Assembly (NCBI RefSeq): GCF_964199755.1
Contig: NC_133897.1
Span: 55,810,442-55,874,441, forward strand
Direction of reading: 5' to 3'
DNA from: Larus michahellis
Taxonomy: Eukaryota > Chordata > Aves > Charadriiformes > Laridae
DNA: 64,000 bases
The notes beneath the pieces are model-generated. The model had not been told where the DNA came from. It made no database searches and saw only the letters and a list, made by a program, of their open reading frames with translations. A program made the translations under genes and the position numbers. Below are positions 3,153 to 64,000 of the stretch, piece by piece; position 1 is the stretch's first letter; every line of letters starts with the position of its first letter.

Positions 3153-3634
3153 GGACCGCCAGTAGGCACAGTAGTAGGTGCCTTCATCGCTGGGGTTGAC
3201 GTCATAGATGGAGAAAGTGCAGACATTTGTACCTTGCTTCCAAGAAGAGTACTTGTTCCTATAGGAATCATCATCATAAGTGACTGGTCCTGATCCGATT
3301 AACAGAATCCGTTGGGGAGCCCTGGGGGGTGTATGTCGGTACCAATGTATATACGCAGACTGGAAGCCAGATATGCCCTCGGCTACACAGTCAATCCGTG
3401 CAGTTTTCGTTTGCTCTCTGGTAACAGATGCTTGACTCTGCTTCAGAAGCACTTGTGCTCGTCCAGCTAGAAAGAAGGAGAGAAAAGAGAACAAACTCTC
3501 TCAGCCTGCTGTCCATTCCCACTGCCAAATACGGGGTGCCTCCTGCCACTGCCCCACACCGTGTCGTGCCGTGGTGACAAGGGGAACCTGCGAGACCAGG
3601 CTGCAGCCAGGCCCAGGAGCAGGAGCAGCAGCAT
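3153..3634 (-). CDS. TRGV: TRGV segment, subgroup B copy 1 (B1), GC splice donor
   Basis: Leader exon 3,592-3,634 (MLLLLLLGLAAAWS) and V exon 3,153-3,466, which follows TTTCTAG. Phase-1 splicing gives a mature start near GRAQVLLKQS. The first Cys is in RIDCVAEG, the Trp in HWYRH, and the second Cys in GTYYCAYWRS, just before the heptamer. The V exon is open. The leader donor reads TCTC|GCAGGT, where copies B2 and B5 have TCTC|GTAGGT. GC donors work only in a strong context and this one is weak, so leader splicing may be poor. A shift to the next GT would break the frame. Function is therefore less certain than for the other copies. Confidence 0.88.
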
Positions 3635-14582: not shown

Positions 14583-16224
14583 GCTGCCTGTGTGGGTTAA
14601 ACCTGGAAAGGAAATCAAGAGAGACAGGAACATTATAACGCCCTTCAGGCGGAGAAAGCATCAAATGACTGGGAGGCGGCTGTGACTCATGGGGCACATC
14701 CAATGGTCGCTCTTCAACCTGCTGCACGGAGGGGGTTAAATGTACTGACAAGCTAAACCACAGCTGCAAGAGAGCAGAAAGGACCCACAATACTTAACGT
14801 GAAACAATTTTTTTTCACCTGCGTATCCACTACATTCCTCTCTGACTTACTGCCGAGCACACCCATGAAACCTCACATTCATCAGTCCACCCTTCCCAAG
14901 GATGGTCTCCTTTGCTCAGACACCCCAAAGCTGTCCCAGAAGCACGTTTCACCAGCCTTTCCGAGAACATACTGCCTGCTGTGGGAGCACAAATGGGATA
15001 AGTCATAGTGAACTATCATCTCTTCCTTAAGACGGCTCCAATCCATCTGGTCAGCCTTATCCATCTCCCCCAGACAGGGTGCAGTGAAGCCAGGGCGAAG
15101 CATGCACGTCTCCCAGCCACCTCTTTGCTGCCCTCTGCTCTTTCCTGTCCTTTCCCTCATTTCAGAGCCCTCACAAGGTGCCCTGCAGAGACATGAAGGC
15201 AAATGGTCACTTGGGCAGCAGCCACCGCACACCGCGCTCTTCCCTGAGAAAGATTTCTCATTTTCTCACCCAAAAGAGACAATCCACTCTCGATCTTCTC
15301 GGCCCTTTGTCAATAGCAGCGTACACAACTAAGTCTCATCTCACAACTAGTACACAAAGGTCACATTCTGCTGTGGTCCTTGGCATTGATGCATGGAATT
15401 CTGCCAGGTCCTGTAGTGTAGACATCTACAGTGAAAGAACAACAAAACAAAACCCATAAGCATGGAGTTTAACGACTTGAAGATTTTGTCTTTATTAATA
15501 GTCCTCTTAGGAGTGAAAGCCAGAGAGGAAGGTTTCTTCCAAGGCAAACCAAAGCTGCAAGAAGAACGTGCAGCAACGACGTTTTCAGAGAAGACGTCTG
15601 GGCCTGTAGGAATGCAGGGAATGAACCTCAGATGGGGGACACATTACCACTGAGGAGAGGAAATGATGTGCTCAATTTGCATGAAATATTCACATGGATG
15701 TGGGGTGGGGACAGCACTGTCACATTAAGTCACATTTCGCTGTGGCTCTGCTCCCACCCGTGTGCCTGAGCAATGCCGTGTCCCCATTTCCACGTGTTCC
15801 CTGCTTTAGGTTGCAGCTTTCTCTTGTAAACGGTTTTCACAATCTGTTCTTGGGGGCCGCCTTTTCAGGTGTTGCCCAGTGTTAGAGATCTTGCCTGTCA
15901 CGAGGGGTCCTAAGTGGTATCGGTGTTACAAGCAGTCATCACCAACATCACCACTGAGGCAGGAGTGACCAGTGAGGAGTACCTCTAGCGTGACCAGGGC
16001 TTGAAGTCTTCCATGCTAAATCTTCAGTGCAAATAGTCTCCTGCTACGCTGTATTTGAGAAAGCATCTATAGCCGTCAAAGACAATCTGTGTTACTGTAT
16101 AGTTCGGGTGTAATACCACACCCAGAGGAGTGCTCCTTTTCCCCAGCCCAGCCCATGATACCAGCTGAGTTGTAGAACGCTGCAACGCTTTGTGGAAGGA
16201 GAGGGGAGAGGAAAAAGGGCTTAC
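14583..16224. other. A3 upstream region with unit-specific segment
   Basis: Nearly identical to 962-2,603. It contains the A3 promoter and the segment absent from units 2 and 4, including the 63-codon plus-strand frame at 15,462-15,653. Confidence 0.5.
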
Positions 16225-16267
16225 GGGACCACAATGAGGTTGCAAGAAGGACTGGGAGCAGCAACAT
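16225..16267 (-). pseudogene. Second orphan TRGV leader exon
   Basis: Same structure as the orphan at 2,604-2,646: an intact leader and donor whose intron soon runs into subgroup B 3' flank. The next downstream acceptor in phase is that of A3 at 14,429. Confidence 0.8.
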
Positions 16268-16735
16268 GCTGCCTCTGTGGGTTAAACCTGGAAATGAAAT
16301 TAATAGAGACAGGAACACTATAAAGGTGGAGAAAGCATCAAATGACTGGGAGGAGGCTGTGACTCGTTTGGAACATCCAATGGTCGTCCTTTGAACTGCT
16401 ACCTCCCCCTGTCCTCCCTCCCTTCCATCGCTTCGTTGTTGTCAGCTCAGACTGTATTTGGGAAGGCATCTATATCCTCCAACGATGATCTGTGTCATTG
16501 TCTAAATTCAGCCGTCATTTCCATCACCCAGAGGAGTGCTCCTTTTCCCCAGCCCAGCCCATGATACCAGCTGAATTGTAGAACGCTGCAACTCTTTGTG
16601 GTATTGTGCTGCTCTCTTTGGCTGTTATTTATACTTCCATCCTCAGCAGAAACCTGTTGGGATGTTTCAGAGGCAGGAAGGTGCAATTGTGGTTCTCTGA
16701 ATTCAACGGAAAGCCTCGTGCTCAGGGTACGGGCA
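16268..16735. other. Promoter of the orphan leader and 3' flank of B3
   Basis: Homologous to 2,647-3,113. Nothing further was recognised. Confidence 0.55.
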
Positions 16736-16774
16736 GCTTTCTGTACAGGCTGCCTGTGGTCTGCTAGTTCTGTG
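16736..16774 (-). promoter_or_regulatory. 23-RSS of TRGV B3
   Basis: Heptamer CACAGAA (16,768-16,774), 23-bp spacer with one substitution, nonamer ACAGAAAGC (16,736-16,744). Confidence 0.9.
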
Positions 16775-17134
16775 GGACCGCCAGTAGGCACAGTAGTAGG
16801 TGCCTTCATCGCTGGGGTTGACGTCATAGATGGAGAAAGTGCAGACATTTGTACCTTGCTTCCAAGAAGAGTACTTGTTCCTATAGGAATCATCATCATA
16901 AGTGACTGGTCCTGATCCGATTAACAGAATCCGTTGGGGAGCTTTGGGGGGCATGTGTCGGTACCAATGTATATATGCAGACTGGAAGCCAGATATGCCC
17001 TCGGCTACACAGTCAATCCGTGCAGGTTCAGTTTTCCCTGTGGTAACAGATGCTTGACTCTGCTTCAGAAGCACTTGTGCTTGTCCAGCTAGAAAGAAGG
17101 AGAGAAACCAGAATAAACACTTATCTTTGCCCAT
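16775..17134 (-). CDS. TRGV: TRGV B3: V exon fused to intron, possible intronless leader
   Basis: V exon 16,775-17,088 (314 bp) is open, with Cys, Trp and second Cys (GTYYCAYWRS) and an intact RSS. Its leader exon and most of its leader intron are deleted. The remaining intron end joins the RSS spacer of the upstream element E at about 17,117. An ATG at 17,132-17,134, inside that spacer, opens a frame running straight through the old intron end and acceptor into the V exon. Its start, MGKDKCLFWFLSFFLAGQAQ, looks like a signal peptide: Lys residues, a hydrophobic core and a small-residue end. Alternatively the leader of E (17,566-17,608) could splice to the B3 acceptor, since both are phase 1. 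It could also be dead. The sequence shows the open frame; use is inference. Confidence 0.7.
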
Positions 17135-17145
17135 CTAACTCTGTG
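17107..17145 (-). promoter_or_regulatory. Broken RSS of element E
   Basis: Heptamer CACAGAG (17,139-17,145) is present. The last few bases of the 23-bp interval, and the nonamer position (TATTCTGGT, 17,107-17,115), are B3 intron sequence. The nonamer is lost, so rearrangement from here is unlikely. Confidence 0.85.
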
Positions 17146-17608
17146 ATGCCCTGATAAAATTGACAGGCAAAGTAGTAAGTGCCAGAATCCCTTGGCATTA
17201 AAGAATCTATGGTGAGACCATAGAGGGGCTCTGTTGGAGGCTTCTGAGCTTGAAATCTTCTTCTCTTGCCGCTGTCATCGAAAGCTGGAGACTGTTCTGA
17301 CATGTACAGAATCCTCTTCGGTGGCTCTCCAGGATGCTGCTTGTACCAGTGTATGGTGGCTTCAGAATTCATTTCGCACGCTGTGCTGGCAGACCTCCTT
17401 TTCACTTGCCTCTGCAGCTCTGGGGTTTGCACTGGCGCTGCCTGTGCATCTCCACCTGGAAGGAGAAGCAGAGAAATTCTCTGAGGGGAAGAAACTGGGA
17501 TTATGGAGCCAGGACTCTGCTCTCTCCATAAATGGGAAGGAGAGGGGAGAGGAAAAAGGGCTTACGGGACCACAATGAGGTTGCAAGAAGGACTGGGAGC
17601 AGCAACAT
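17146..17608 (-). pseudogene. TRGV: TRGV element E (divergent subgroup A), defective
   Basis: Leader exon 17,566-17,608 and V exon 17,146-17,455 (310 bp, frame open), related to subgroup A but well diverged (ACEMNSEATIHWYKQ; DDSGKRRRFQAQK). The second conserved Cys is replaced: the motif reads GTYYFACQFYQG, with a Cys two residues later. With the missing nonamer this makes a normal gamma chain unlikely. The promoter block and leader look intact. Its transcript could still serve B3, which starts about 12 bases beyond its V exon. It appears to be an older member of subgroup A rather than a recent copy. Confidence 0.85.
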
Positions 17609-18052
17609 GCTGCCTCTGTGGGATAAACCTGGAAATGAAATTAATAGAGACAGGAACACTATAAAGGTGGAGAAAGCACCAAATGACTGGGAGAAGGATG
17701 TGACTCGTTTGGAACATCCAATGGTTGTCCTTTGAATTGCTACCTCCCCCTGTCCTCCCTCCCTTCCATCGCTTCATTGTTGTCAGCTCAGACTGTATTT
17801 GGGAAGGCATCTATATCCTCCAACGATGATCTGTGTCACTGTCTAAATTCAGCCGTCATTTCCATCACCCAGAGGAGTGGCCTTTTCCCCAGCCCAGCCC
17901 AGTTGCAGCACCCTGCATTTCTGTGCCACTCTCTTTGGCCGTTATTTATACTTCCATCCTCAGCAGAAACCTGTTGGGATGTTTCAGAGGCAGGAAGGTG
18001 CAATTGTGGTTCTCTGAATTCAACGGAAAGCCTCGTGCTCAGGGTACGGGCA
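17609..18052. other. Promoter of E and 3' flank of the B4 stump
   Basis: It contains the TATA-like CACTATAAA and CATCCAATGG elements of E (about 17,655-17,725) and the conserved B-type 3' flank. No other gene was recognised. Confidence 0.55.
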
Positions 18053-18091
18053 GCTTTCTGTACAGGCTGCCTGTGCTCTGCTAGTTCTGTG
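18053..18091 (-). promoter_or_regulatory. Orphan 23-RSS of the B4 stump
   Basis: Heptamer CACAGAA (18,085-18,091), 23-bp spacer, nonamer ACAGAAAGC. It is attached only to a V exon stump and lies about 230 bp downstream of the D3 RSS in the direction of transcription. Confidence 0.88.
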
Positions 18092-18172
18092 GGACCGCCA
18101 GTAGGCACAGTAGTAGGTGCCTTCATCGCTGGGGTTGACGTCATAGATGAAGAAAGTGCAGACATTTGTTCC
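18092..18172 (-). pseudogene. TRGV: TRGV B4, 3' stump of a V exon
   Basis: Only the last 80 bp or so of a subgroup B V exon remain, from TNVCTFFIYD to GTYYCAYWRS. Upstream, at about 18,170-18,176, the sequence changes to the 3' flank of a D gene (AGCTTTTGGCAGCTGATGC, also at 6,328 and 12,298). The first Cys, Trp and leader are absent. Confidence 0.9.
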
Positions 18173-18322
18173 TAGCTTTTGGCAGCTGATGCTTCCACGG
18201 TGTCGGTCAGCCCCGAGCATGTCCTACTTCTCCAGAGCGTGCGCCTGAGGCCAGGCAGCTCATCCACGCTGGGGGATGGGAGTCGGGATCTTTCAAGTTG
18301 TTTGTGGTTGAGACGCTGAGGC

Positions 18323-18361
18323 AGTATTTGTCTCGGTGATCTCAGAGCTCCTACCACAGTG
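18323..18361 (-). promoter_or_regulatory. 23-RSS of TRGV D3
   Basis: Heptamer CACTGTG (18,355-18,361), 23-bp spacer, nonamer ACAAATACT (18,323-18,331). Confidence 0.88.
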
Positions 18362-18840
18362 ATCGTACCAGTAGGCGCAATAGTAGGTAGCGGTGTCGTC
18401 TGGAGTGACATCGTTTATTGTAAGAATACACAGTTTCTGGCTGGAATCTTTTTCAACCCTGTACCTGCGTTCTTGGAAACCCTCATCTACTACTTTTCTC
18501 GTCCCTGCTAAGTAGAGAATCCTCTCTGGAGCTTTATTCGCCTTCTGTTGATACCAGTGTATGTAGGTGCGATCAAAATTTACAGAGACATCTTTAAAGT
18601 GACATTCCAGATACACACTTCCTTTAGACTTGGTGAGAGAGAGTGGTCTCTGCACGGGAATTCCTTGTGCAAATCCACCTAGGAAAAAAAAGAGGAGAAA
18701 TGGTGTCATGAGCTGGAATTCAGGGCTTTGGGAAGACGCCTGCTAGCAGAGCCGTGTGTGCCTGTGAGGGAAGGTAAGAAAACAAGGAAGCACTTACAAG
18801 ACCAAGCGGCTGTGGAGACAAGCGCTGCCAGCAGCAGCAT
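18362..18840 (-). CDS. TRGV: TRGV segment, subgroup D copy 3 (D3)
   Basis: Leader exon 18,798-18,840 with donor GTAAGT, and V exon 18,362-18,678 (317 bp). It reads NFDRTYIHWYQQ where D1 and D2 read NFDDTVIHWYQQ, changes in the first hypervariable loop. Both Cys and the Trp are kept. The RSS is intact although the 3' flank is fused to the B4 stump shortly after. It looks functional. Confidence 0.92.
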
Positions 18841-19956
18841 GTTTGCTGGTCACGCTCTGCTGTCGTTGAGAGTCAGAGGAGGGTGCAAGGGAGCGGAGAC
18901 GGGGACTGGGCTGTGTGGGAGGAGCAGGTGACTCTCTTGAGCAGTCTTCAGCAACGGGTCTTCTGTGTGCAAGCAGATGGGGCACGTTTGCAGAAAACCC
19001 TCTCCAAGCTGGCACATGCTAAAATTGGTTAGGCAGTTGTGGTCCTGCCTGCTTTTCAGGTGAATACGAGAAACACTGGTAAATCCTAGGATTGTGGCCC
19101 TTGAAACCTTGAGGCAGAGCCACTGAGGAAGGAAGGGCTGTGAGTGAGATCCGCTCCAGCTGCGCGTGAGGGCATGAAGGTTTCAACCTGGAGGTCACCC
19201 CAGTGGGCGGTGAGCGTGTGCCGTCACCCGCAGGGGTGCTGAGAGGCGTACAGTGCCTGAGCGGGCAGGAGGCATTCCCCCACCCCGTTAGGGACCTCCT
19301 TTTGCTGCTTCAGCTCAGTCACCCAGCTGCAGCACGCCCAAGGGCCTGGGATGCCCCCGTGCTGGTGCTGCCCTCCACCGGAGCAGACGGCGGCCATCAG
19401 CCTGCAGCAACCGGGGCAGCTGCACCACGGGGACGTGCCTCCACTCTGGTTTCGGATGCGGGAGGAAATGCACAGCCGCAGGATTTTGGGTTTGAAGCTC
19501 GGATGAGATGCAAACACTTCTTGGAAGGAAGGCTGGAAAACAAAAGGGAGCCCTGTGAGGGCTGCTGGCAGCAGCCATGGCAGAGGGGCATCTCGATGAG
19601 CGGGGCTGGTGCTGCGGGGTGCTCCCCTGTGACTGGGTCCTGGTTCGAGCGACACAGGATTAATTGCGCTTTCAGTAATTTTACTGAACTTGAGTACAAC
19701 CAGGCCTTCATCTTAAGAGTCACGGTCAGTGTATTCACGCCAAAGTGACGGGGACTCTCCAGTTTCAGGACCTTACAGAGAGGGGTGAGTATTGAATTGA
19801 TACACTGACCGTAAACATCATCTCTTTAGCCATTGCCATGCTAAATTGCTATTTCTCTTATCCTGTTGCAGAAAATCGTCAGAGAGGGGTGGAATAAGGA
19901 AGTATCGGCATTTTGGCAGATCAGCATTTTGAGCTTGCGGTTCAGAGTGCAAAAGT
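18841..19956. other. D-to-A spacer, unit 3/4
   Basis: Homologous to 6,996-8,111. No extra gene was recognised. Confidence 0.6.
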
Positions 19957-19995
19957 GCTTTTTGTACGGCTTATCTTTGCCCATCTAACGCTGTG
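19957..19995 (-). promoter_or_regulatory. 23-RSS of TRGV A4
   Basis: Heptamer CACAGCG (19,989-19,995), 23-bp spacer, nonamer ACAAAAAGC (19,957-19,965). Confidence 0.93.
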
Positions 19996-20458
19996 ATGCC
20001 TTCATAGAACCAATAGGCACAGTAGTAGGTGCCAGAATCCCTCGGGGTTAAATATTGTATCGTGAGACCGTAGAGGGGCTCAGTAGGATGTTTCCATACT
20101 TGAAATCTCCTTGTATCACTGCTGTCATCAAACACAGGTGACTGTCCCGACACGTACAGGATCCTCTTTGGCGGCTCTCCAGGAAGCTGCTTGTACCAGT
20201 GCACGATGTTTTTGGCGCTCATTCGGCATGCCATGCTGGCAGAGCTGCCAGTCACCTGCCTCTGCAGCTCTGGGGTTTGCACCGGCACTGCCTGTGCATC
20301 TCCACCTGGAAGGAGAAGCAGAGAAATTCTTTGAGGGGAAGAAACCACGGGATTTTGGAGCCAGGACTGCGCTCTCTGGAAATGGGAAGGAGAGGGGAGA
20401 GGAAAAAGGGCTTACGGGACCACAGTGAAGTTGCAAGAAGGACTGGGAGCAGCAACAT
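19996..20458 (-). CDS. TRGV: TRGV segment, subgroup A copy 4 (A4), mosaic
   Basis: Leader exon 20,416-20,458 and V exon 19,996-20,305 (310 bp), all conserved residues present. The 5' part (QAVPVQ, HWYKQ) matches A3, whereas the 3' part (FQVWKHPTEPLYG) matches A1. This patchwork suggests gene conversion or unequal exchange. The promoter is of the CACTATAAA type. It looks functional. Confidence 0.92.
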
Positions 20459-32659: not shown

Positions 32660-33266
32660 TCACATCCCAGGCTGCATCAAAAGCATGGCCAGGAGGTCAA
32701 GGGAGGAGATTATCCCCCTGTACTCTGCTCTCAGGAGATCTCACCCGGAGTACTGTGTCCAGCTCTAGGGCCCCCAACATAAGAAGGACTTGTTGGAGTG
32801 AGTCCAGAGGAGGGCCATGAAAATGATCAGAGGGCTGAAGCATCTCTCCTGTGAAGACAGGCTGAGGGAGTTGGTGTTGTTCAGCCTGGAGAAGAGAAGG
32901 CTTCAGGGAGACCTTATAGCGGCCTTCCAGTTCTTAAAAGGGGCCTACAGGAAGGATGGGGAGGGACTCTTTATCAGGGACTGTAGTGGTAGGATGAGGG
33001 GTAACGGTTTGAAACTGAAAGAGGGGAGATTTAGATTAGATATCAGGAAAAAATTCTTTACTATGAGGGTGGTGAGGCACTGGAACAGGTTGCCCAGAGA
33101 AGCTGTGGCTGCCCCATCCCTGGAAGTGTTCAAGGCCAGGCTGGATGGGGCTTTGAGCAGCCTGGGCTAGTGGGAGGTGTCCCTGCCCATGGCAGGGGGG
33201 TTGGAACTAGGTGACCTTTAAGGTCCCTTCCAACACTAACCATTCTATCATCCTGTGATTCTATGA
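32660..33266 (+). mobile_element. CR1 non-LTR retrotransposon, 5'-truncated copy
   Basis: The sequence follows the well-known avian CR1 3' end: the block CAGGCTGCATCAAAAGC, the phrase GAGGGCCATGAAAATGATCAG, then TTCAAGGCCAGGCTGGATGG, GGTCCCTTCCAAC and a tail CCTGTGATTCTATG. A remaining open frame of 117 codons (32,817-33,170) keeps the C-terminal part of the ORF2 protein (SLEKRRLQGDLIAAFQFLKG; HWNRLPREAV). The 5' part, including the polymerase core, is missing, so it cannot move by itself. Confidence 0.95.
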
Positions 33267-40322: not shown

Positions 40323-43300
40323 CTACTCCAGATGGCGTGTGAAGTTCTCTGGGAAAAGTCCTTTATAACTGTTTGCATCTCTGTACTGAAGCCACTCGGA
40401 TTCCTTGATGCCTGTCAACCAACCAGCCTCCTGTAAGGAAAAAGACAGAGTCTCTTAAACTTCGGGTCTCCCCGCTTCCTTGCTACAAGCTTCAGACCTG
40501 CAGACCTTTCAGAGTCACATGGCTAAAAGATTTGGTCCTTTGGTTAAAAAGCAGCCTCTGATTTTGCACAGACTGTTTTCTCTGTTCTGCCAGACCACAA
40601 TTTTGTGAGACCGAGGGACTGTGAGCATATTGTATGGCTTTTAGCCCACCTAACCCCCAGCTGAACTCAAAACAGAATAATCAGTCTTCCAGGTCATCCA
40701 CTATTAAACCAGATCTGCACTTGTGAAAATCTCTGTTGAGACTTCTTCAAAGTCGCCACAATAATATTGGCACACTTGCATAGTAAGAGCATAGCAGTGG
40801 GCCAGAAACATTATAGAGTACCATAGATGGGTGAAAAAAATAGTTTTCAATCTGATTTTTTTCCCCTGAGAGTTCTTTTCTCTCATTCAGGTATAAACAG
40901 TCAGAAGGAATAATAGTTCTTGCAACCTCTGGAATTACTATATCTGGAAAGTCAAAGTTAGGTAAAATGCAATTATTTTTCCAAAAACCCCTGGAAACCT
41001 AAACCAGAACCTGGCGATGCAAAATTGCACACAAATCACCAGCAGTCCAAGCAATCAAAAGAAGGCTTTCTTATTGAAAAGGGCTGGGTTCTCTTAAGTG
41101 TGATCAGTTCTACCTGGAATAAAATCAATTCAGTATTTTTAAAAACTATCAACCTGTTCTCATCTCACTAACTCAGTAACTCTGTGCTTTCTTCCTTTTA
41201 AGACAAGGAGCCAGAGCAAAGCCATGGTGAACAGGGAATTTCTCATGCTGCCATATTATTATCGCACAGAGAATCCACAAAGAGATAGAGTAATTTGAAT
41301 GGATCTTCACGTACACCACCACTCTCTGCCCCAAAATAAGCATCGCTAAAGCAGATACAGCTTAAGTATGGCATTGGCTGGGTACATGTAACCGGGGGAC
41401 ACGTTTTTGAAGCATGTGGAATATCTGAGAGGAAAGAGGAGCTACAGCTTTCTAGCACAGGCAGAGTAGGCTGTACGAAGGAATGAGCAGTTTTACTGGA
41501 TAATAACTTCCACTCAAGACTAATGGGAAAATTGAAGCCCCTGGGCGGGACTGGTTTGCTTTGAGTGGGGAACATGGGCTGATGTTAGCAGCTATATTAG
41601 AATTATGGTTTTAGACAGACCAATTTTGAAGGAGAATAAAGAATAACAAAGATAAAAATACTCTATATAAATCAACAAAGTACCTGGCAAAAGATAAAAA
41701 GATTAAGCTTTATGGTGATGTTAAACATGAAGGGCAAATATGTACTGAGTAATAAAGATATGACCAGAATGATTTCAGAAACAGGAATACATAAAGGTTT
41801 ATTTTCTCCATCATTGCACACAATTTACTCTAATTAATGCTAATGGAATTTCGATGCACACCACGAGAAGAATATACTTCATTCATTCACCAAGTGAAGA
41901 TTAAGTATATTTAACACATAACATCCTAAGAAAAACAGACTGAAGACAGCAGATTTTGCTATCCTTTCAGCAGTGTCCTATTCTGCATATACTGATAACG
42001 AAATTACTTGAACTGCCCATGAGATACAATGCAGCATAATTTGAGTGAGGATAACAGAAACTATCGCCATAAAAAAAGCAAAGTGCCCTGTTGAAAGAAA
42101 AATCTTTTATTCTGAAATTAAAAAAAAAAAACCAAAACAACAAAAAAACCCCACAAAAAGCAATTACTTGTCTCTTGTATTAAAAGAAAGCTCAGCTGAG
42201 GTGATGAACACTGGTTATTACATATTTTTGGACAGCATCAACCATCGAAATAATTTCAAATACAGTCCCCAGCACTCCTAAGTGTTTAGGATGTTGATAT
42301 TTAGACTTATTTTAAGAAACAGTCTTCATTCAGGGCAGTGCTTTCAGCTGTCTCACTAGGCAGCATCCAGCCCCCCATCTCTCAACCCCTAAATCAACGG
42401 AAGACTTTTCACCACCATCACTGGCAGATGCCCATGGAGCGGCTAGTGCTAACAGTGTACAGTACGGTCTTCTCTTTTAAAGCAGCGGCCAAAAATCAAT
42501 TTACTTCGCTGCAATTCAATTTAAGACATGGAATGAAAGAATTCAAAAATTCACCTGAAACACATTGCTAAAACAAAAATGAAATGTCTTAAATGAAATT
42601 AAACCATTCTATAATTCAGGTTTAGGCTTCCAGAGGGCAGAGTTAGCTTTAGAGGCAGGCAGCGCACATAGCGGCACCTCCATACATTTCGGCTATGGAC
42701 AGCACAATTCGTGTGCAGTCTCAGTGCTCTCTGGGGGTGAATTTGTATTATTTCTCCAAATCCACATGTAAAAGCTCGGAACATCTAGGGACCATGTAAT
42801 CAATTCTACTGCAATATTAAGGCAAGATGATATACAGCAACATAATGTACAATTTGTAAGTCATCTTCCATATTAAGTCTTTGTGTGCATGTGTGCCTGT
42901 ACAAAATCCACTACAAAATAGCATAAAAAAGCCCTAGAAAATATGCTGAGGTTGAATCCTGCTAGTAGCATATATCTGGGACTTCAGCTGTAGCCAACCA
43001 TGCCATTTAGTCTCAAATGAAACCAAGTACTAAGACAAAATTAAAATTTTTGTGTTTTCTTACAGTAATGACATTTTAGATACACATTCCCATTAATTAT
43101 AATTTGTGAGAAAAAAAACTGAGACAAAGAAAAGTGTCAACAAAAGAAAGAGCCAGGTGTTTTTACCTGATCAGCCGTGGTCTCAGAAGGAATTACTAGT
43201 ACAATATCTCCTCGTTTTAAATTAAGCTCATCACTGTTAGCTGCCTCGAAATCGTGTAGAACTTCAACCTGAAGAAAATAACACCATACATGTAGACATG

Positions 43301-46300
43301 ATCTAAATGCAGACATTTTCACAACAAAATTCTCTGTTAAATCTTTATTGCAAATTAAAGAGTAATGCGCTGCCTTTATGCAAACATATGGCTATAGGAA
43401 GGTACATTCAAATCGTTAATGATGACACTGACACACGTCAAAGTTTTCTGTTCACATCCTTGGAAGCAGGAACAGCTTAAGTAAGTCTTCCTGAGACTAC
43501 CAAAGGAAACCTAAGATCCTTTCCCAAGGTCACAACATCTCAAGGACAGATGATACTGCAACACTCCACAAGTCCTGCCTCTCAGACAAGTCCTGCCGCC
43601 CTTATTCCTTCTGTGTAAGGAACTTGTTTTCATTCCACACTATCAATATTTCTAGATCTGAGAGAGGGGTGGCAGGATTTTGAAAACAGAATTGGAAAGA
43701 CTCACAAGAACTGGTATTTCAGACTCTCATTCTCTTGTTGTGGCCACTGGATATCATTCTTGCTGTAACCATCCACAGAAATTTGAATGGGACACAGAGC
43801 ACCCATTTCAACAGGTGATCAAAGAGGTGGGTAATGGGAACCCTACTTCATGTTTGCCCTGAAAAGAGCTCCCATGTACTGGCAGATGGGTATGCAAAAA
43901 ATATCTGTCTGTCAAAGGGGTGATTATTAAAACATTGTCAGGATCAGCATGTCATTGTGTACAGGCCATTTTAACTAAATGGTTCTACCTCCTTAAGAGA
44001 TATGCTATTCTAATTTCCTCAAGGCACAGCCAGTTCCGTGGTAACTCTGCAATAATGAAAGCAAATGGCATCAAGAACCAGATGGCAGGCATAGATTCTT
44101 CTTCTCCTTATTTATGCCTGACCCAAGAGAATGTGATGAAAAACAAGAGATGAACTATGTCAGCATGTTTGAGTCATAGCTGCGCAGTACTGTTCTCAAG
44201 GTTTGCGGAAAATATTGAGCAATAAGAATAGCCCAAGAAGAATGACATACTTATGGGGTGCTATGGGACTAATTAGTCTGAACTATGCAAATTATAATAG
44301 GAAGCACGTAAAGTTCATCCATCCTCAAGGAGCTTTTCTGCTGCTCAGTGATTCTGAAGTGAGAAGCATCATCAAAGAACCTTGTGAACCAGGAAACCCT
44401 ATGGGTCTTGCCAGCCAAGTAGAGAATTTCTCTTACGCCTCATTAAACTTTTCTGTTTGATTACCCTAACAGTTCGTAACTATAATATTACTAAAGTCAG
44501 AGAATGACATTTTAGCTTCATTAGCGTGAATTGTAGAAGTCCCATGGGTTTCAACAGAACCAAAACTCCCATTATAAATTTTCAGGCCAGAAAAATGCCA
44601 TTTTTTAATATTCATAGAATCATAGCATGGTTTGGGTTGGAAGGAACCTTGAAGATCAAATGTATTGTTGGTATATCAGATATATTGTTAGCATATATCA
44701 TACCGCATTGCTGACTAACTCTGTGGCAGTGCAGTTTTCCTCAATATGCTAATTTGCAGTAGTAATTTGGTGAGATGAAGGGGTTCTTGTGCTTCAGTGA
44801 GTCTTACAGCTACATAAGGATTCGCACAGCAACAACAGCATGCAGAAAACCTACCTTCTCAAGACTTCATGCATGAAGCAACAACAGAATGTTAAAGTTG
44901 TGTTTGTGTGTATGTGTGTAGCTGGCTGTTAAGCTAAGTAAGCATCGTTTGGCCTCCAGAAATCATCGCGCTACCTGACGGACAGACACATCCGCAGAAG
45001 CTAGATCTGAAAGGGTGTCTAAAAGAAGAATAAAGAAGCAGACCTTAAAGAGAAAGCCAGGTGGCATCGCAGAAGCTGTGTCTTCTGCTGGAACAGGCTG
45101 ATCTTGAGAAGGTGCAGCCTGGATTTCTTCAGCGGGTTTCTGCTCGCCTCCAACTTGGGAAGTTTCACTGGGAGAAGTGTCAGTGCCCTGAGTGCCCATC
45201 TCGGCTGCAGCATCTTTGGACTCGTTCATGACGACTTCATGTTCTTCTCCCTCCCCCTCATTGTTTGATGCTGGCTGTATTACTACTGAAGGGATGCTGC
45301 TGACCTTGTCCTGGGAAAAAAAAAAACAAACCACAAAACAACACAACAGCACCATGAGAGTATTTAGTGCTTTACTTCAAGCAGGAAAGCACAATTGTTT
45401 GTTCATTGCACAGGGCATATGTGCAATATGGGGATTGGGGAGAATGGGGATTGGGGATTTCTTTCTTCTCCATAGTGGATTCTTACATTAAGACAGAAAG
45501 CAGTACTTGTGCAAGAATGTGAAGGAGTAATCCCTTCCCTGTTTTCCCCATTCCCCTTAGTCCTCCTAAGTCTACTTTCTATATTACCACAAACCATTGC
45601 AGTAAATAATAAAAATGCTCTGCAGGTAGTTTGGGTTTCATTTTTAATGTGCATGAAAATTAACAGACCTTTCTCCTCCACCCTGCTCTTAACTTTGGGT
45701 GGGTTTGAGTAAAGCCACAACTTCCAGGAGTCACTGTCCTATTTTTCTTTGGGAGTTCAGGTCAGCAGGATAATGGTGACATAAAGGTGAAGAAAGAAGG
45801 AAACATGACCTATTTCTTTGACTGATTGAGGGGATTTATCCTGATTTACAGCAATGTAACTGGAAGTAGAGAAAGCAAAAAGGCTAAGTAGGTAGCATCT
45901 GACCAATAACAAAGCCTAGGACAAAAAGCATTTAATGAAGCTCATTGGAGCATCCACCCTGAAAAGAACATTTTCACTGATCCCCTGACAAACCATCCTG
46001 TTCTGGAGCACAGAAGAAGGACAATGTGCAATGACAGGAGGTGGCAACTGGCTGCCCAGCTGCAGGGTTTGCTCTAGTACCTGTTCCCCAGCTCCTCAGA
46101 GGCTGCAGAAGAAAAGGCAGCAGGCCAGATGCAGATGCATAGCTTGACCACCGTGGTTTACATAAAACAAATTAATGCTATTGGATAGGACATGGTGCCA
46201 TGATACAGGAAAAATGCAGTACTTTCTCTGCCTATTTCTCCAGAAAGCCCTGTTAGGTTCTATGATAAAGCTTGTCTCCACAGAGGAGCCCAGAGACAAC

Positions 46301-61300: not shown

Positions 61301-64000
61301 ACCAAAAAAAAAAAAAAAAGGCAGGATAACTTCAGTATTTTTATAAAATAAAATAAAAAAAAAGACTAGGTGTATTTAAAGTTATGCATATAAAACACAA
61401 AACCTGTGAGACACAACGTGCCTTCACAGTTCAAAGCTTCATTCACCATTTTGAAATGCATTTTTGTCAGCCCGCTTCATTACACGGCTGAAGGGTACCA
61501 CACTATGAGCAGTTGCATGGCAATTTTTCAAAAAAAAAGAACAGCACGGGCTTAGGAGGGGCAGTGGGAAACACACAAATGGATTGTTTTTAAACGACAA
61601 GGTTATGCATGGCCTAAGGAACTCTTTGTCTAGACTAGGCTACACACTGGGGTAGGTACCTCTTCTTTATCAGCCTCAATTTCCTGGTACAACAATCCAT
61701 ATCTCCGGTTAGCAATTTCATCTTCAGATAAATCTGAGTTGTTGGTCTCATTGTCTTTAGGGCTAGTTGAACTCTCGGTGCTAGCATTTCTGGAATTTCC
61801 CATTTGAAACAGAGCCAAGGGTCTAGCTATCTCCTTGCTCGGTCCAGGATTGCTAAGGCCTGCCTGCTCCCCAGGCAAGCCTTGTTTTACTGGTGCTTCC
61901 TGACTTTTATTGCTTGTGCTCGCACCTACTTCTCCCCAGATGTTATCAGTCCCTCCTAGGTCTTGCGTAGACCATTTATCACTAATGCCTAACCAAGCAT
62001 TTTCCGTGTTACCTTCCTCTGAGTCTTGCTGCTTGGGGAAAAAGGGCCAATTATCCAGTCCATTGGGTTGGCCATCTGACAGATTAGAAAACCCCCAGGA
62101 ATCATTAGTAACTGTTGGGTCCCAGTTTGCCAGCCAGGGCTCGGTTTCCAAGGCTTCAGGAACACCACCGCTACTAGGATGCTCTTCAGCGACTGCTGCT
62201 GCCGCCCTACCTGTCACTTGGTCTTCTGCATTATCTAGGCAAGGACTACCACAGCTCGTGCTAGCAGCATCAGCTGTCTCGGGCAGCAATGCCCACTCCT
62301 TTTCAGCAGCAGCTTGACCTTCAGGAGCAGCACCACCATTTGGGACGAGGCTGATGCTATTGTCTTCAATTCCTTTACCAGGCTCTTCTGCGCTGAATAA
62401 TTCAGCATCACACAGAACATTTCCAGTATTTGTAGGGTCCTTTTCTGTGTGGCCAGTTGCCTCTACATCAACACATGCTGTCATGTTTACACACTCCATG
62501 GATGTACTCTCTCCGGTACCACTGTCAGTTTGGTCTAAGCCATCCTCAAATGTCCTTTCGTGGTCCTGATCCCAGATACCAAAGACTCTCTCAGCTTCAG
62601 CTCCAGTGTTTTCTATAGTTTCACAGTTGTCTACCACTATTTTGTCCCCACCTTCCAGCCCTGTGCTCAACAATGGTATTTCTCCATCTGCCTCCTCAAT
62701 AACATCAACCCCTTTGAATTCTTCTTCCCTAGGGTTTTCTTGCTTAGCACCACTAGCTCTCCCAGCATCCCCATCCTTATCTTCCAACTCATCTACGTTT
62801 TCTACCTCTGTGCTGACTAAAATGTCAAGATCTGATTTCTCTAAACCCTTTTGAAGTTCTGCCTCACTGTTTCCTTTGGTTTCGCAACCTCGCTCTTCCA
62901 GTTCCTCCATACCTTCTACCGCCTTGTAGTTAATAGCTCTGGTCTCTACCTTTTTACTTGGCTTGACACCTGCCCACTCTTCTTCCTCCCGCTCTTCCTC
63001 TGCTTTTTGCACATCACATGGGAGGGGTTCATCCAACAAGCTATCAGTTCCCAGGATGGGCGTCTCAAAACTGGGTATGTTCTCTAAAGGCTGATTGGTC
63101 ACCACATCTTCCCATGGGACATTTTTGGCATCCAACTGGTCCTGCAGTAAAGTCCTCTGGTTTTCGTTTACAGAAGCTGACCCTGGTGCAGCATCCTCCC
63201 GCTCACCTACAGCAGGCCAAACACTAGCAGGCAGAGTACCCGTGGATTCGCTTGAGGTTTGCTCTGCCCCAGGGGAAAGCAAAGAACCGCCTGCAGTAAT
63301 TTCCCGGCTGACACTGGGTGTGCTAACATCTAGGCCCCAGTTGAGTGAACCTAGGTCAGTTTGAGATCTGTTAATATCTTCTGATGACCCACTGTTTGGG
63401 GTTTCCTCCATGACCAGGTTACACAGGGAAAGACTTTTTGAAGAATCAGGCTTTAAGCAGACAGAAAAGCAAAGAAAAAACACAAGATGAAAAAGATAAA
63501 GGCGGACTTGATGAGAAAACACAAAATTTATATTTTACTACAGCAATTTTAATTTAAAGAATGAAAGTGACTAAACTAAGCCGTTTAAGGAAAAGCTATG
63601 TGGTTTGCAACATTTGGAGGCAATAGATTGCAATGTAAAAGAGCAGCACTGATAGACAAAACCAGAAAACTATGTATTACACCATGCTAATTAAAGCATG
63701 TCTCTAGAGTGGTTGCAATGTTGGAGGGAGGTTTGCTTACCGGCTGCACCAGCTCGCTGCTTGTCTGTATAGAAGAAAATCATACATTAAAAACACAGAA
63801 AATAAGAACATGACGTACTTTGTTACAGCAGTATTTCGTTAATCAGCAGTTCTCTAGCCAGCAGCAGTTACCAAATCGGTGTTGGGAAGGAGCGGCGGGT
63901 ACTCTCCTGCCATTCCAAGAAGACTAATCCCAGGCCCCTGAATTTAAGCCACGCTTCCAGCCTCTACATTGCATTATAAATGAAGTTCTATAGTACGTTG
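39265..64000 (-). CDS. AMPH: AMPH (amphiphysin), 3' half, gene-level entry
   Basis: Amphiphysin binds curved membrane, dynamin, clathrin and AP-2 in synaptic vesicle endocytosis. The window shows the linker after the clathrin/AP-2 region and the C-terminal SH3 domain. The N-terminal BAR exons lie to the right. Ten coding exons, all phase 0, can be joined: 63,741-63,764; 61,660-63,450; 61,071-61,103; 59,612-59,662; 57,459-57,575; 50,843-50,899; 46,612-46,761; 45,044-45,310; 43,167-43,268; 40,323-40,430. Apart from the second, they follow the mammalian protein segment by segment (LVQP, FNGF, DTS-FT, EAPPxEPK, PSVVIxPASN, PPGFLxK, LHDFEAANSDEL, GLFPENFTR). Its place 5' of the TRGV cluster, same strand, is the conserved amniote order. 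Exons missed in the large introns are possible. Confidence 0.93.
40323..40430 (-). CDS. AMPH: AMPH last coding exon (second half of SH3)
   Basis: It follows TTCCTTACAG, reads EAGWLTGIKESEWLQYRD and ends GLFPENFTRHLE and a stop TAG. It contains the SH3 Trp (GWL) and the ALYDF-type partner motif PENF. The SH3 domain binds proline-rich dynamin and synaptojanin. Confidence 0.96.
   Translation of the reverse strand, partial: EAGWLTGIKESEWLQYRDANSYKGLFPENFTRHLE
40431..43166 (-). other. AMPH intron within the SH3 domain
   Basis: About 2.7 kb, AT-rich. No exon, mobile element or RNA gene was recognised. Confidence 0.7.
43167..43268 (-). CDS. AMPH: AMPH exon, first half of SH3
   Basis: 34 codons between TTTTCTTCAG and CAG|GTAAAA. 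It contains the SH3 start VEVLHDFEAANSDELNLKRG, including the acidic RT loop. Confidence 0.96.
43269..45043 (-). other. AMPH intron with short CR1 tail
   Basis: At 44,613-44,660 lies a fragment (CATAGAATCATAGCATGG, then TTTGGGTTGGAAGGAACC) typical of the reverse-oriented 3' end of CR1 elements. Nothing else was seen. Confidence 0.6.
45044..45310 (-). CDS. AMPH: AMPH exon, acidic linker before SH3
   Basis: 89 codons between a poly-pyrimidine tract ending CCCAG and AAG|GTCTGC. It starts DKVSSIPSVVIQPASNNEGE, matching the conserved linker of mammalian amphiphysin, and ends MPPGFLFK directly before the SH3 domain. Rich in Glu, Ser and Pro. Confidence 0.95.
45311..46611 (-). other. AMPH intron
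   Basis: 1.3 kb. No further exon was recognised. Confidence 0.6.
46612..46761 (-). CDS. AMPH: AMPH exon, alanine-rich linker
   Basis: 50 codons between TTTGTAG and CAG|GTAACT. It reads VVPVTEAAAAAEDGAAVAAG and ends EKEADVSQ. It is low in complexity (Ala, Gly, Glu) and poorly conserved in sequence, but the phase and position fit the linker of amphiphysin. Confidence 0.88.
46762..50842 (-). other. AMPH intron
   Basis: 4.1 kb. An 18-base A run lies at 48,684-48,701. An open frame on the minus strand at 49,874-50,152 ends near a GTAAGT donor, but it resembles nothing in amphiphysin and lacks a clear acceptor. No exon is called. Confidence 0.5.
50843..50899 (-). CDS. AMPH: AMPH small linker exon (19 codons)
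   Basis: It lies between TTTATACAG and GAG|GTACAT and reads DSVEAGDKETTGVAEKESE, acidic like its neighbours. Phase 0 at both ends, so it can be skipped without breaking the frame. Confidence 0.85.
50900..57458 (-). other. AMPH intron, largest in the window
   Basis: 6.6 kb, AT-rich, with a T run near 52,247-52,260. Mammalian amphiphysin has more linker sequence between the flanking segments than is found here, so a small exon may hide in this intron; I could not locate one. Confidence 0.5.
57459..57575 (-). CDS. AMPH: AMPH exon, linker with atypical splice acceptor
   Basis: 39 codons, TEAEEAPPGEPKVEETPAAA to PAEPAEQAA, ending at GCG|GTGAGT. It matches the EQAPPTEPKAEEP segment of mammalian amphiphysin. 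The only AG that keeps the frame is in CAAACGAAAG|ACT. It has no adjacent pyrimidine tract; the nearest pyrimidine-rich run lies about 30-45 bases upstream. An in-frame stop just before rules out an earlier start. Confidence 0.85.
57576..59611 (-). other. AMPH intron
   Basis: 2.0 kb. Nothing recognised. Confidence 0.6.
59612..59662 (-). CDS. AMPH: AMPH small exon (17 codons)
   Basis: It lies between TATACCTAG and TTG|GTAAGT and reads DTSAFTVPSNENVTEPL. It matches the DTSLFT region of the mammalian protein. Confidence 0.92.
59663..61070 (-). other. AMPH intron
   Basis: 1.4 kb. Nothing recognised. Confidence 0.6.
61071..61103 (-). CDS. AMPH: AMPH small exon (11 codons)
   Basis: It lies between TCTACTTAG and CAG|GTAAGA and reads ASSTAFNGFAQ, matching ASGGSFNGFTQ of the mammalian protein. 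In that protein this segment follows LVQP directly, which shows that the large exon upstream is an insertion that can be skipped. Confidence 0.93.
61104..61659 (-). other. AMPH intron, A-rich
   Basis: Several A runs at about 61,205, 61,300-61,318 and 61,345-61,362. No exon was recognised. Confidence 0.6.
61660..63450 (-). CDS. AMPH: AMPH giant in-frame cassette exon (597 codons)
   Basis: It is open for 1,791 bp between acceptor TGCTTAAAG|CCT and donor GAAGAG|GTACCT, phase 0 at both ends. It sits between the exons coding LVQP and FNGF, so the standard brain form would skip it. A retinal amphiphysin isoform with a large insert at about this place is known in mammals, and this is probably its counterpart. 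The segment is acidic (long Glu/Asp stretches), without membrane or folded-domain signs. The C-terminal third has a Trp cluster: PWLANW near codon 436, SWGF, WPFF near 467, AWLGI, WGEV near 503. These resemble the WxxF-type and Trp-based short motifs by which endocytic proteins bind AP-2 and clathrin. The 24 open codons upstream are intron. Confidence 0.88.
63451..63740 (-). other. AMPH intron
   Basis: Short intron (290 bp) upstream of the giant exon. It has a moderate pyrimidine content before TTAAAG. Confidence 0.7.
63741..63764 (-). CDS. AMPH: AMPH micro-exon (8 codons)
   Basis: 24 bp between TTCTATACAG and CCG|GTAAGC, reading TSSELVQP. It matches TSTDLVQP just after the clathrin-binding PWDLW motif of mammalian amphiphysin. 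The exon with PWDLW should lie beyond the right end of the window; 63,765-64,000 shows no further exon. Confidence 0.92.

Follow-up and report, generated by a model that had tools for sequence, protein, structure and literature searches.

A duplicated head-to-tail fusion of two TCR gamma V genes in Larus michahellis

Two V genes of the TCR gamma locus of Larus michahellis, here called E′ and B3, are fused head to tail at a junction that itself exceeds chance. The original prediction had described a deletion, and the deletion is there as proposed: on the minus strand, the spacer of the E′ recombination signal (RSS) is joined directly to the end of a B-type leader intron, and B3 has lost its leader exon, the B leader exon being absent from 2/2 fused copies. 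It is also correct that an ATG in the old spacer opens a stop-free frame through the intron remnant and the acceptor into the B3 V exon. The further proposal that this frame is the signal peptide of the gene is unsupported: the frame is compatible with chance, D-family V genes carry frames like it, and the leader of E′ lies nearby. If B3 is expressed, we favour a hybrid leader supplied by E′; otherwise we favour no productive use, and both are likelier than a signal peptide derived from an RSS.

Locus organization

The window, meaning the whole 64,000-nucleotide stretch of DNA that was analysed (C2:55810442-55874441, where C2 is contig NC_133897.1), contains a tandem array of TRGV genes on the minus strand. 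The gene order, the V families and a neighbouring gene that we take to be amphiphysin-like identify the locus as bird TCR gamma, in minus-strand orientation. Exon-like frames with an SH3-like segment and a long acidic tract (43137-43391, 44963-45376 and 61630-63534, all on the minus strand) presumably belong to this amphiphysin-like gene, and a frame at 32802-33170 (+) resembles what we take to be the 3′-terminal part of a CR1 retrotransposon reverse transcriptase. Downstream of the V array lie five J-like segments (C2:55744683 to 55737844); a C-domain-like reading frame was recognised by eye near C2:55734000.

The V families were matched to those of chicken by N-terminal motifs, with the chicken motifs taken from PMC10972964 (in part). 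Family B resembles TRGV1 (QVLLKQ here and QVLLQQ in chicken, one residue apart), E resembles TRGV3 (QAAPVQ), D resembles TRGV2 (PVQS here, PIQS in chicken), and C resembles TRGV4 (LQQSP here, LWQSP in chicken). The repeat order C-B-E-D equals the chicken order TRGV4-TRGV1-TRGV3-TRGV2 (PMC8493715, in part), and, judged by N-terminal motif and gene order, B appears to correspond to chicken TRGV1. In both fused copies the upstream neighbour of B3 is E′, not C. The best 60 of 4903 matches in a PDB search were antibody fragments together with a small number of T-cell receptor V domains, and nothing specific was among them.

Structure of the junction

The breakpoint lies between 17120 and 17119 rather than at 17,117, where it had been predicted, and the junction (17119-17120, minus strand) is marked by a 2-nt microhomology (AG) common to both parents. 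What remains of the E′ RSS spacer, TTAGATGGGCAAAGATAAG (17120-17138, minus strand), is E-identical and equals the other aligned E ends, bar one with a substitution before the ATG (14 rows). Both fused copies keep the spacer as far as ATAAG and then pass into TGTTTATTCTGGTTTCTCTCCTTCTTTCTAG, with which the B leader intron ends. This remnant comprises the last 31 nt of the intron (17089-17119, minus strand), with the acceptor TAG, a branch-like TTTAT at -26 and a polypyrimidine tract. Ordinary E ends have the heptamer CACAGCG, the spacer TTAGATGGGCAAAGATAAGCCGT, and then a nonamer-like ACAAAAAGC or ACAAAAAAG. The heptamer of E′ is CACAGAG (17139-17145, minus strand), and its nonamer is gone in both copies.

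The spacer ATG (17132-17134, minus strand), which is in frame with B3 and has T at -3 and G at +4, is present in 14/14 aligned E ends (nine ordinary, three B-E hybrids and the two fused) and therefore predates the fusion. From 17134-17132 the frame reads MGKDKCLFWFLSFFLAGQAQVLLKQ..., with no stop up to the V exon, and the reading MGKDKCLFWFLSFFLAG[Q/R]AQVLLKQ is open in both fused copies. Other B copies had been predicted to have no ATG in this frame, and this holds for 10/10 unfused copies, where the frame is 12 codons long and bounded by a stop. The E′ reading frame ends at a TAA (17121-17123, minus strand) that begins 11 nt downstream of the first base of the spacer ATG and is in a different frame.

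The two fused genes

E′ retains a leader with the coding part MLLLPVLLATSLWS plus 1 nt (phase 1; 17566-17608, minus strand), its ATG at 17608 and the donor GTAAGC from 17565. Its V exon (17146-17455, minus strand) is a divergent TRGV3-like sequence that scores 36.9 bits against the Pfam V-set and is 79-86% identical to other E genes over the aligned length. The second Cys is changed to Phe in the window copy (YYFACQ) and kept in the second copy (YYCASR). A search with the motif ATGTTGCTGCTCC found a leader peptide as in E′ in 14/14 E-type leaders, four of which are remnants without a V exon. E′ leader remnants lie downstream of B genes at 2573-2678 and 16194-16299 (minus strand) and at two places outside the window; the one at 16194-16299 follows B3 and is 99% identical to the E′ leader region. 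E′ may once have had a regular place in the repeat, with its V exon surviving only in the two fusions.

The B3 V exon (16775-17088, minus strand) is TRGV1-like and has C23, W41 and C104 in place (RIDC, HWY, YYC). It scores 36.2 bits against the Pfam V-set, where the cut-off is 26, and thus combines the N-terminal motif QVLL.Q with the V-set domain of avian TRGV1; neither stop nor frameshift interrupts it in 2/2 fused copies. Its RSS, rightly predicted to be intact, is a 23-RSS of the form CACAGAA - 23 nt - ACAGAAAGC (16736-16774, minus strand), with one spacer difference from its siblings and with heptamer and nonamer as in the 7/7 unfused B copies whose 3′ end is still their own. The heptamer CACAGAA differs from CACAGTG in its last two bases (positions 6 and 7), as do those of the siblings. 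A functional V gene in the IMGT sense has an open V exon with conserved residues, a 23-RSS, and its own leader exon with a donor. B3 has the open V exon and the 23-RSS and lacks a leader exon with a donor of its own. The leader donor of the unfused B copies is GT after MLLLLLLGLAAAWS in 9/10 and GC in 1/10. The nine read GTAGGT, and the tenth, at about 3591 (minus strand), has TCTC followed by GCAGGT in the B copy with its V exon start at 3466. The cassette that holds E′ and B3 also contains, upstream of E′, a 3′ remnant of another B V exon (18057-18178, minus strand).

In the window fused copy only, changes cluster at 17024-17041 (minus strand) of the B3 V exon (codons 15-20, counting the first whole codon as 0) and turn REQTKT into TGKTEP, as though by conversion from a donor sequence. 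Relative to the unfused consensus, B3 has 9 nonsynonymous and 3 synonymous changes, which are non-independent events given this conversion-like cluster, and the second fused copy has 3 and 1. The ratio of nonsynonymous to synonymous changes is 12:4 in the fused copies and 12:9 in six unfused full-length copies (Fisher p = 0.31), which gives no evidence of constraint, a count that omits four unfused copies of other V exon length, one of 311 nt and three 322-nt B-E hybrids. These three hybrids lie outside the window at C2:55785321, C2:55780323 and C2:55775306, where B V exons switch to E in framework 3 and end in an E CDR3 stub and an E-type RSS (YYCAYWFYEG, CACAGCG-23-ACAAAAA); they are in-frame hybrid V genes with an altered recombination signal.

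Duplication of the fused cassette

A search of the bird's own genome (1.4 Gb) with window 17000-17300 as query found two full-length places among at least 24 matches, so that the junction occurs both in the window and at C2:55771970-55772270 (96% identity over 301/301 bases). The duplicated cassette extends further: window 16452-20049 (minus strand) is 97.05% identical to C2:55771429-55775004. The two cassettes are 3.6 kb long, lie 55 kb apart, and differ at ~3% of sites. Three substitutions in the intron remnant are common to both fused copies and occur in 0/10 unfused B copies. The junction, these substitutions and the open frame are shared by both copies, and the fusion is therefore older than the duplication.

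Possible expression through the E′ leader

We propose that a deletion or unequal exchange in the tandem TRGV array fused the two V genes head to tail. The event took out the E′ nonamer and all that followed it, sparing only the last 31 nt of the B leader intron. As a result E′ no longer has its recombination signal, and B3 lacks its leader exon and the part that preceded it while retaining the acceptor, the V exon and the RSS. Duplication of the fused cassette came afterwards. Because B3 is without the B leader exon and the upstream part, it presumably has no promoter of its own. After rearrangement of B3 to a J segment, the nearest leader exon before B3, and presumably the nearest promoter, would be those of E′. 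The E′ leader donor could then be spliced to the B3 acceptor (phase 1, 477 nt), so that the E′ V exon and the spacer ATG would become intron, with MLLLPVLLATSLWSPGQAQVLLKQ... as the hybrid product. Should this splice be inefficient, B3 would be an ORF or pseudogene. The junction, its duplication, the frames, the splice signals and the phases are seen in the sequence itself; the E′ promoter and its transcription, the exon skipping and any protein are steps that we infer. As far as sequence can tell, this course of events, a fusion by deletion and then a duplication, with B3 expressed through the E′ leader or else an ORF or pseudogene, comes close to an even prospect.

Several features of the sequence bear on the hybrid splice. 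First, joining the E′ donor at 17565 to the B3 exon start at 17088 gives MLLLPVLLATSLWSPG[Q/R]AQVLLKQ, which is open in 2/2 copies. The hybrid leader would be marked by MLLLPVLLATSLWSPGQAQ, as against MGKDKCLFWF for a start at the spacer ATG, and the alternative leader peptides of B3 would be MGKDKCLFWFLSFFLAGQAQVLLKQSQASVTTGK and MTPFLLFFFLGGFAQGIPVQSPL. Second, a 360-nt stretch round the E′ leader (including 250 nt upstream) is 91% identical between both fused copies, 85-95% identical to 7/12 other E-type leaders, and 62-63% identical to the other 5. Third, the B3 acceptor has a polypyrimidine fraction of 0.90, the same as at E, compared with 0.95-1.00 in unfused B copies. The fused copies have a yUnAy motif (TTTAT) at -26 with no AG from there to the acceptor. 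The motif is absent from the scanned stretch of 9/10 unfused B copies, the exception being TTCAC at -22, and it is in none of the 10 E acceptors listed.

Splicing of the E′ leader to the E′ acceptor would remove a 110-nt intron, make the exon 367 nt longer, and bring in the stop at 17123-17121. Exon definition favours the shorter exon, and pairing of the J donor with the B3 acceptor would mark out a V exon of ordinary size; for this reason we take splicing of the E′ leader to B3 to be the likeliest productive path. Counting against it, the E′ acceptor is the closer of the two, at 110 nt, and is followed by G at +1 where B3 has C, and the polypyrimidine tract of B3 falls slightly short of that in unfused B copies.

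B3 may instead be an inert relic that might still rearrange, but whose RNA, initiated at E′, uses the E′ acceptor, ends at the TAA and is degraded. We hold this to be possible, if doubtful. No B leader is left, the donor has the E′ acceptor at 110 nt and that of B3 at 477 nt, the E′ frame stops before B3, and the changes in the fused V exons follow a neutral-like pattern. Pseudogenes are frequent in avian TRG loci and make up 28% of chicken V gamma genes (PMC10972964, in part), and the leaderless duck Vdelta2.6 is classed as a pseudogene (PMC5278385, in part). On the other side, the B3 V exon has no stop or frameshift in either copy, its RSS is unharmed, and an in-phase E′ leader precedes it in each.

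The frame opened by the spacer ATG

According to the original prediction, translation starts at the spacer ATG, and the spacer, polypyrimidine tract and acceptor together encode the intronless signal peptide MGKDKCLFWFLSFFLAGQA. We consider this unlikely. The peptide has the appearance of a leader, with a basic start, a hydrophobic stretch, CLFWFLSFFLA, whose best 8 consecutive residues average 2.14 on the Kyte-Doolittle scale, and small side chains at -3 (G) and -1 (A). The frame is open in 2/2 copies, with 0 differences over the 46 nt from ATG to exon, although we estimate that at 3% divergence such identity would be seen in roughly a quarter of cases. There is no known promoter beside the ATG, RNA from the E′ promoter would reach the E′ leader ATG first, and T at -3 is a poor start context.

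The chance of obtaining such a frame was estimated from simulated joins, in which one E copy was broken at 19 positions (from inside the spacer ATG to the spacer end) and joined to every position of one B intron. An ATG frame into V arose in 211/2375 joins over the whole intron (8.9%), in 211/703 joins within the open stretch (30%), and, at 15-45 nt above the acceptor, in 126/570 joins (22%). When the breaks ranged across the entire spacer and intron positions -60 to -10, the frame arose in 178/1150 joins (15%). At such rates, 9-30% of the time, the open ATG frame, unlike the junction, is not surprising and may be due to chance.

The same kind of frame is found where no fusion has taken place. 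The hydrophobic core of the B3 frame is the polypyrimidine tract, and a stretch equal or close to ECLFSFLSFFLA is open above the acceptor in 10/10 unfused B copies, without an ATG. All D copies (11/11) have an in-frame ATG above the acceptor, reading MTPFLLFFFLGGFAQ[G/E]IPVQ, and are more hydrophobic than B3 (2.78 vs 2.14 per 8 residues). An in-frame ATG in the same exon, the mark of a single-exon leader, is thus present in B3 and equally in 11/11 D copies. Such frames are not universal, which speaks for the spacer ATG: within 45 residues above the acceptor, an in-frame ATG occurs in 0/10 C copies and in 1/11 E copies, and so is missing from 10/10 and 10/11, respectively. The ATG frames above all D acceptors and the chance rate in the simulated joins together weaken the signal-peptide claim.

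The in-frame ATGs of the TRGV2-like D genes lie at 18670, 12793 and 6825 in the window, with eight more down to C2:55746362, and the D-copy ATG overlaps the branch-site-like CTCATGAC. By eye, one D copy in the window (acceptor 18678) has an ordinary spliced leader near 18820-18860 with the donor GTAAGT. Judged from their reading frames, unspliced D RNA could be an alternative source of signal peptide. A signal-peptide-like reading of the acceptor region can thus be a by-product of splice signals, and it does not occur in every family.

Two further alternatives concern the assembly and the mode of translation. The array is strongly repetitive, and a 15-kb duplication in a chicken assembly of the TRG locus was contradicted by BAC sequence, PCR and digestion (PMC8493715, in part); even so, an assembly artefact is very improbable here, with the junction at two places 55 kb apart that are ~3% different and with three near-junction substitutions absent from every unfused B copy. 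Least credible of all is a bicistronic RNA in which E′ V is translated to the TAA at 17123-17121 and reinitiation at the ATG at 17134-17132 makes B3-J-C: start and stop do lie within 14 nt of each other, but the arrangement is compatible with chance, and vertebrate ribosomes rarely reinitiate once they have translated an ORF of this length, about 125 codons.

Comparison with known V gene leaders

The closest parallel is chicken TRGV1, which belongs to the same V family by motif and place in the repeat and in which, as in B3, leader and V can be read as one exon. Chicken Vgamma1 has no intron between leader and V and, as measured by 5′ RACE, provides 28.12% of the TCR gamma transcripts in thymus (PMC8456604, in part), which speaks for the spacer-ATG leader. 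Speaking against it, the single-exon leaders of most chicken TRGV1 genes have a low SignalP 6.0 rating, so that these genes are classed as ORFs, and TRGV1 is infrequent in chicken spleen (PMC10972964, in part). The main expressed TRGV1 gene is TRGV1.3, and TRGV1.2 was not detected (PMC8493715, in part). The single-exon leader in chicken is a property of the whole subgroup (PMC8456604, in part) or of most of it (PMC10972964, in part), whereas here an ordinary stop-bounded intron is present in 10/12 B copies, and a one-exon reading is possible for the two fused ones alone. Leader and V also share one exon in chicken TRAV1 (PMC10972964 and PMC8456604, both in part), as in the B3 frame, but at another locus.

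The novelty of B3 is reduced because chicken Vgamma1 has already been published without a leader-V intron. A start codon derived from an RSS spacer has no published match in our literature search, which was largely at title and abstract level, while an intronless leader in the B counterpart is already on record. Among titles and abstract starts, no precedent was found for a V exon being skipped by splicing from the leader of a V gene upstream. In human V gamma 10 and 11 the leader intron is reportedly not spliced, going by a title of Zhang et al. 1994; that case, a splicing failure by its title, and B3, with its leader exon lost, are both gamma V expression problems at the leader intron. The examined part of PMC5278385 holds nothing on duck gamma leaders. 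Like E′-B3, the avian TRG deletion pseudogenes TRGV1.4 and TRGV2.10 arose from deletions within V genes of a tandem array (PMC8493715, in part). Unlike them, the E′-B3 deletion leaves an open V exon and RSS behind the complete leader exon of another V gene.

Implications for V gene leaders

A more general idea, which we rate as improbable, is that acceptor tracts may serve as ready-made signal peptides: the tract reads as Phe, Leu and Ser, the exon start would act as the cleavage site, and an ATG would come from the branch-like CTCATGAC in D or from the RSS spacer of a neighbour in E′-B3. E′-B3 would then be a traceable case, and the leaders of chicken TRGV1 and TRAV1 may share an origin in an intron end.

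Without expression, B3 would be a fused pseudogene of the ordinary kind. If it is expressed with either leader, a leaderless V gene in a shuffled array would have been rescued at once, by the leader of its neighbour or by the end of its own intron, and this would bear on the origin of the intronless TRGV1 and TRAV1 leaders of birds.
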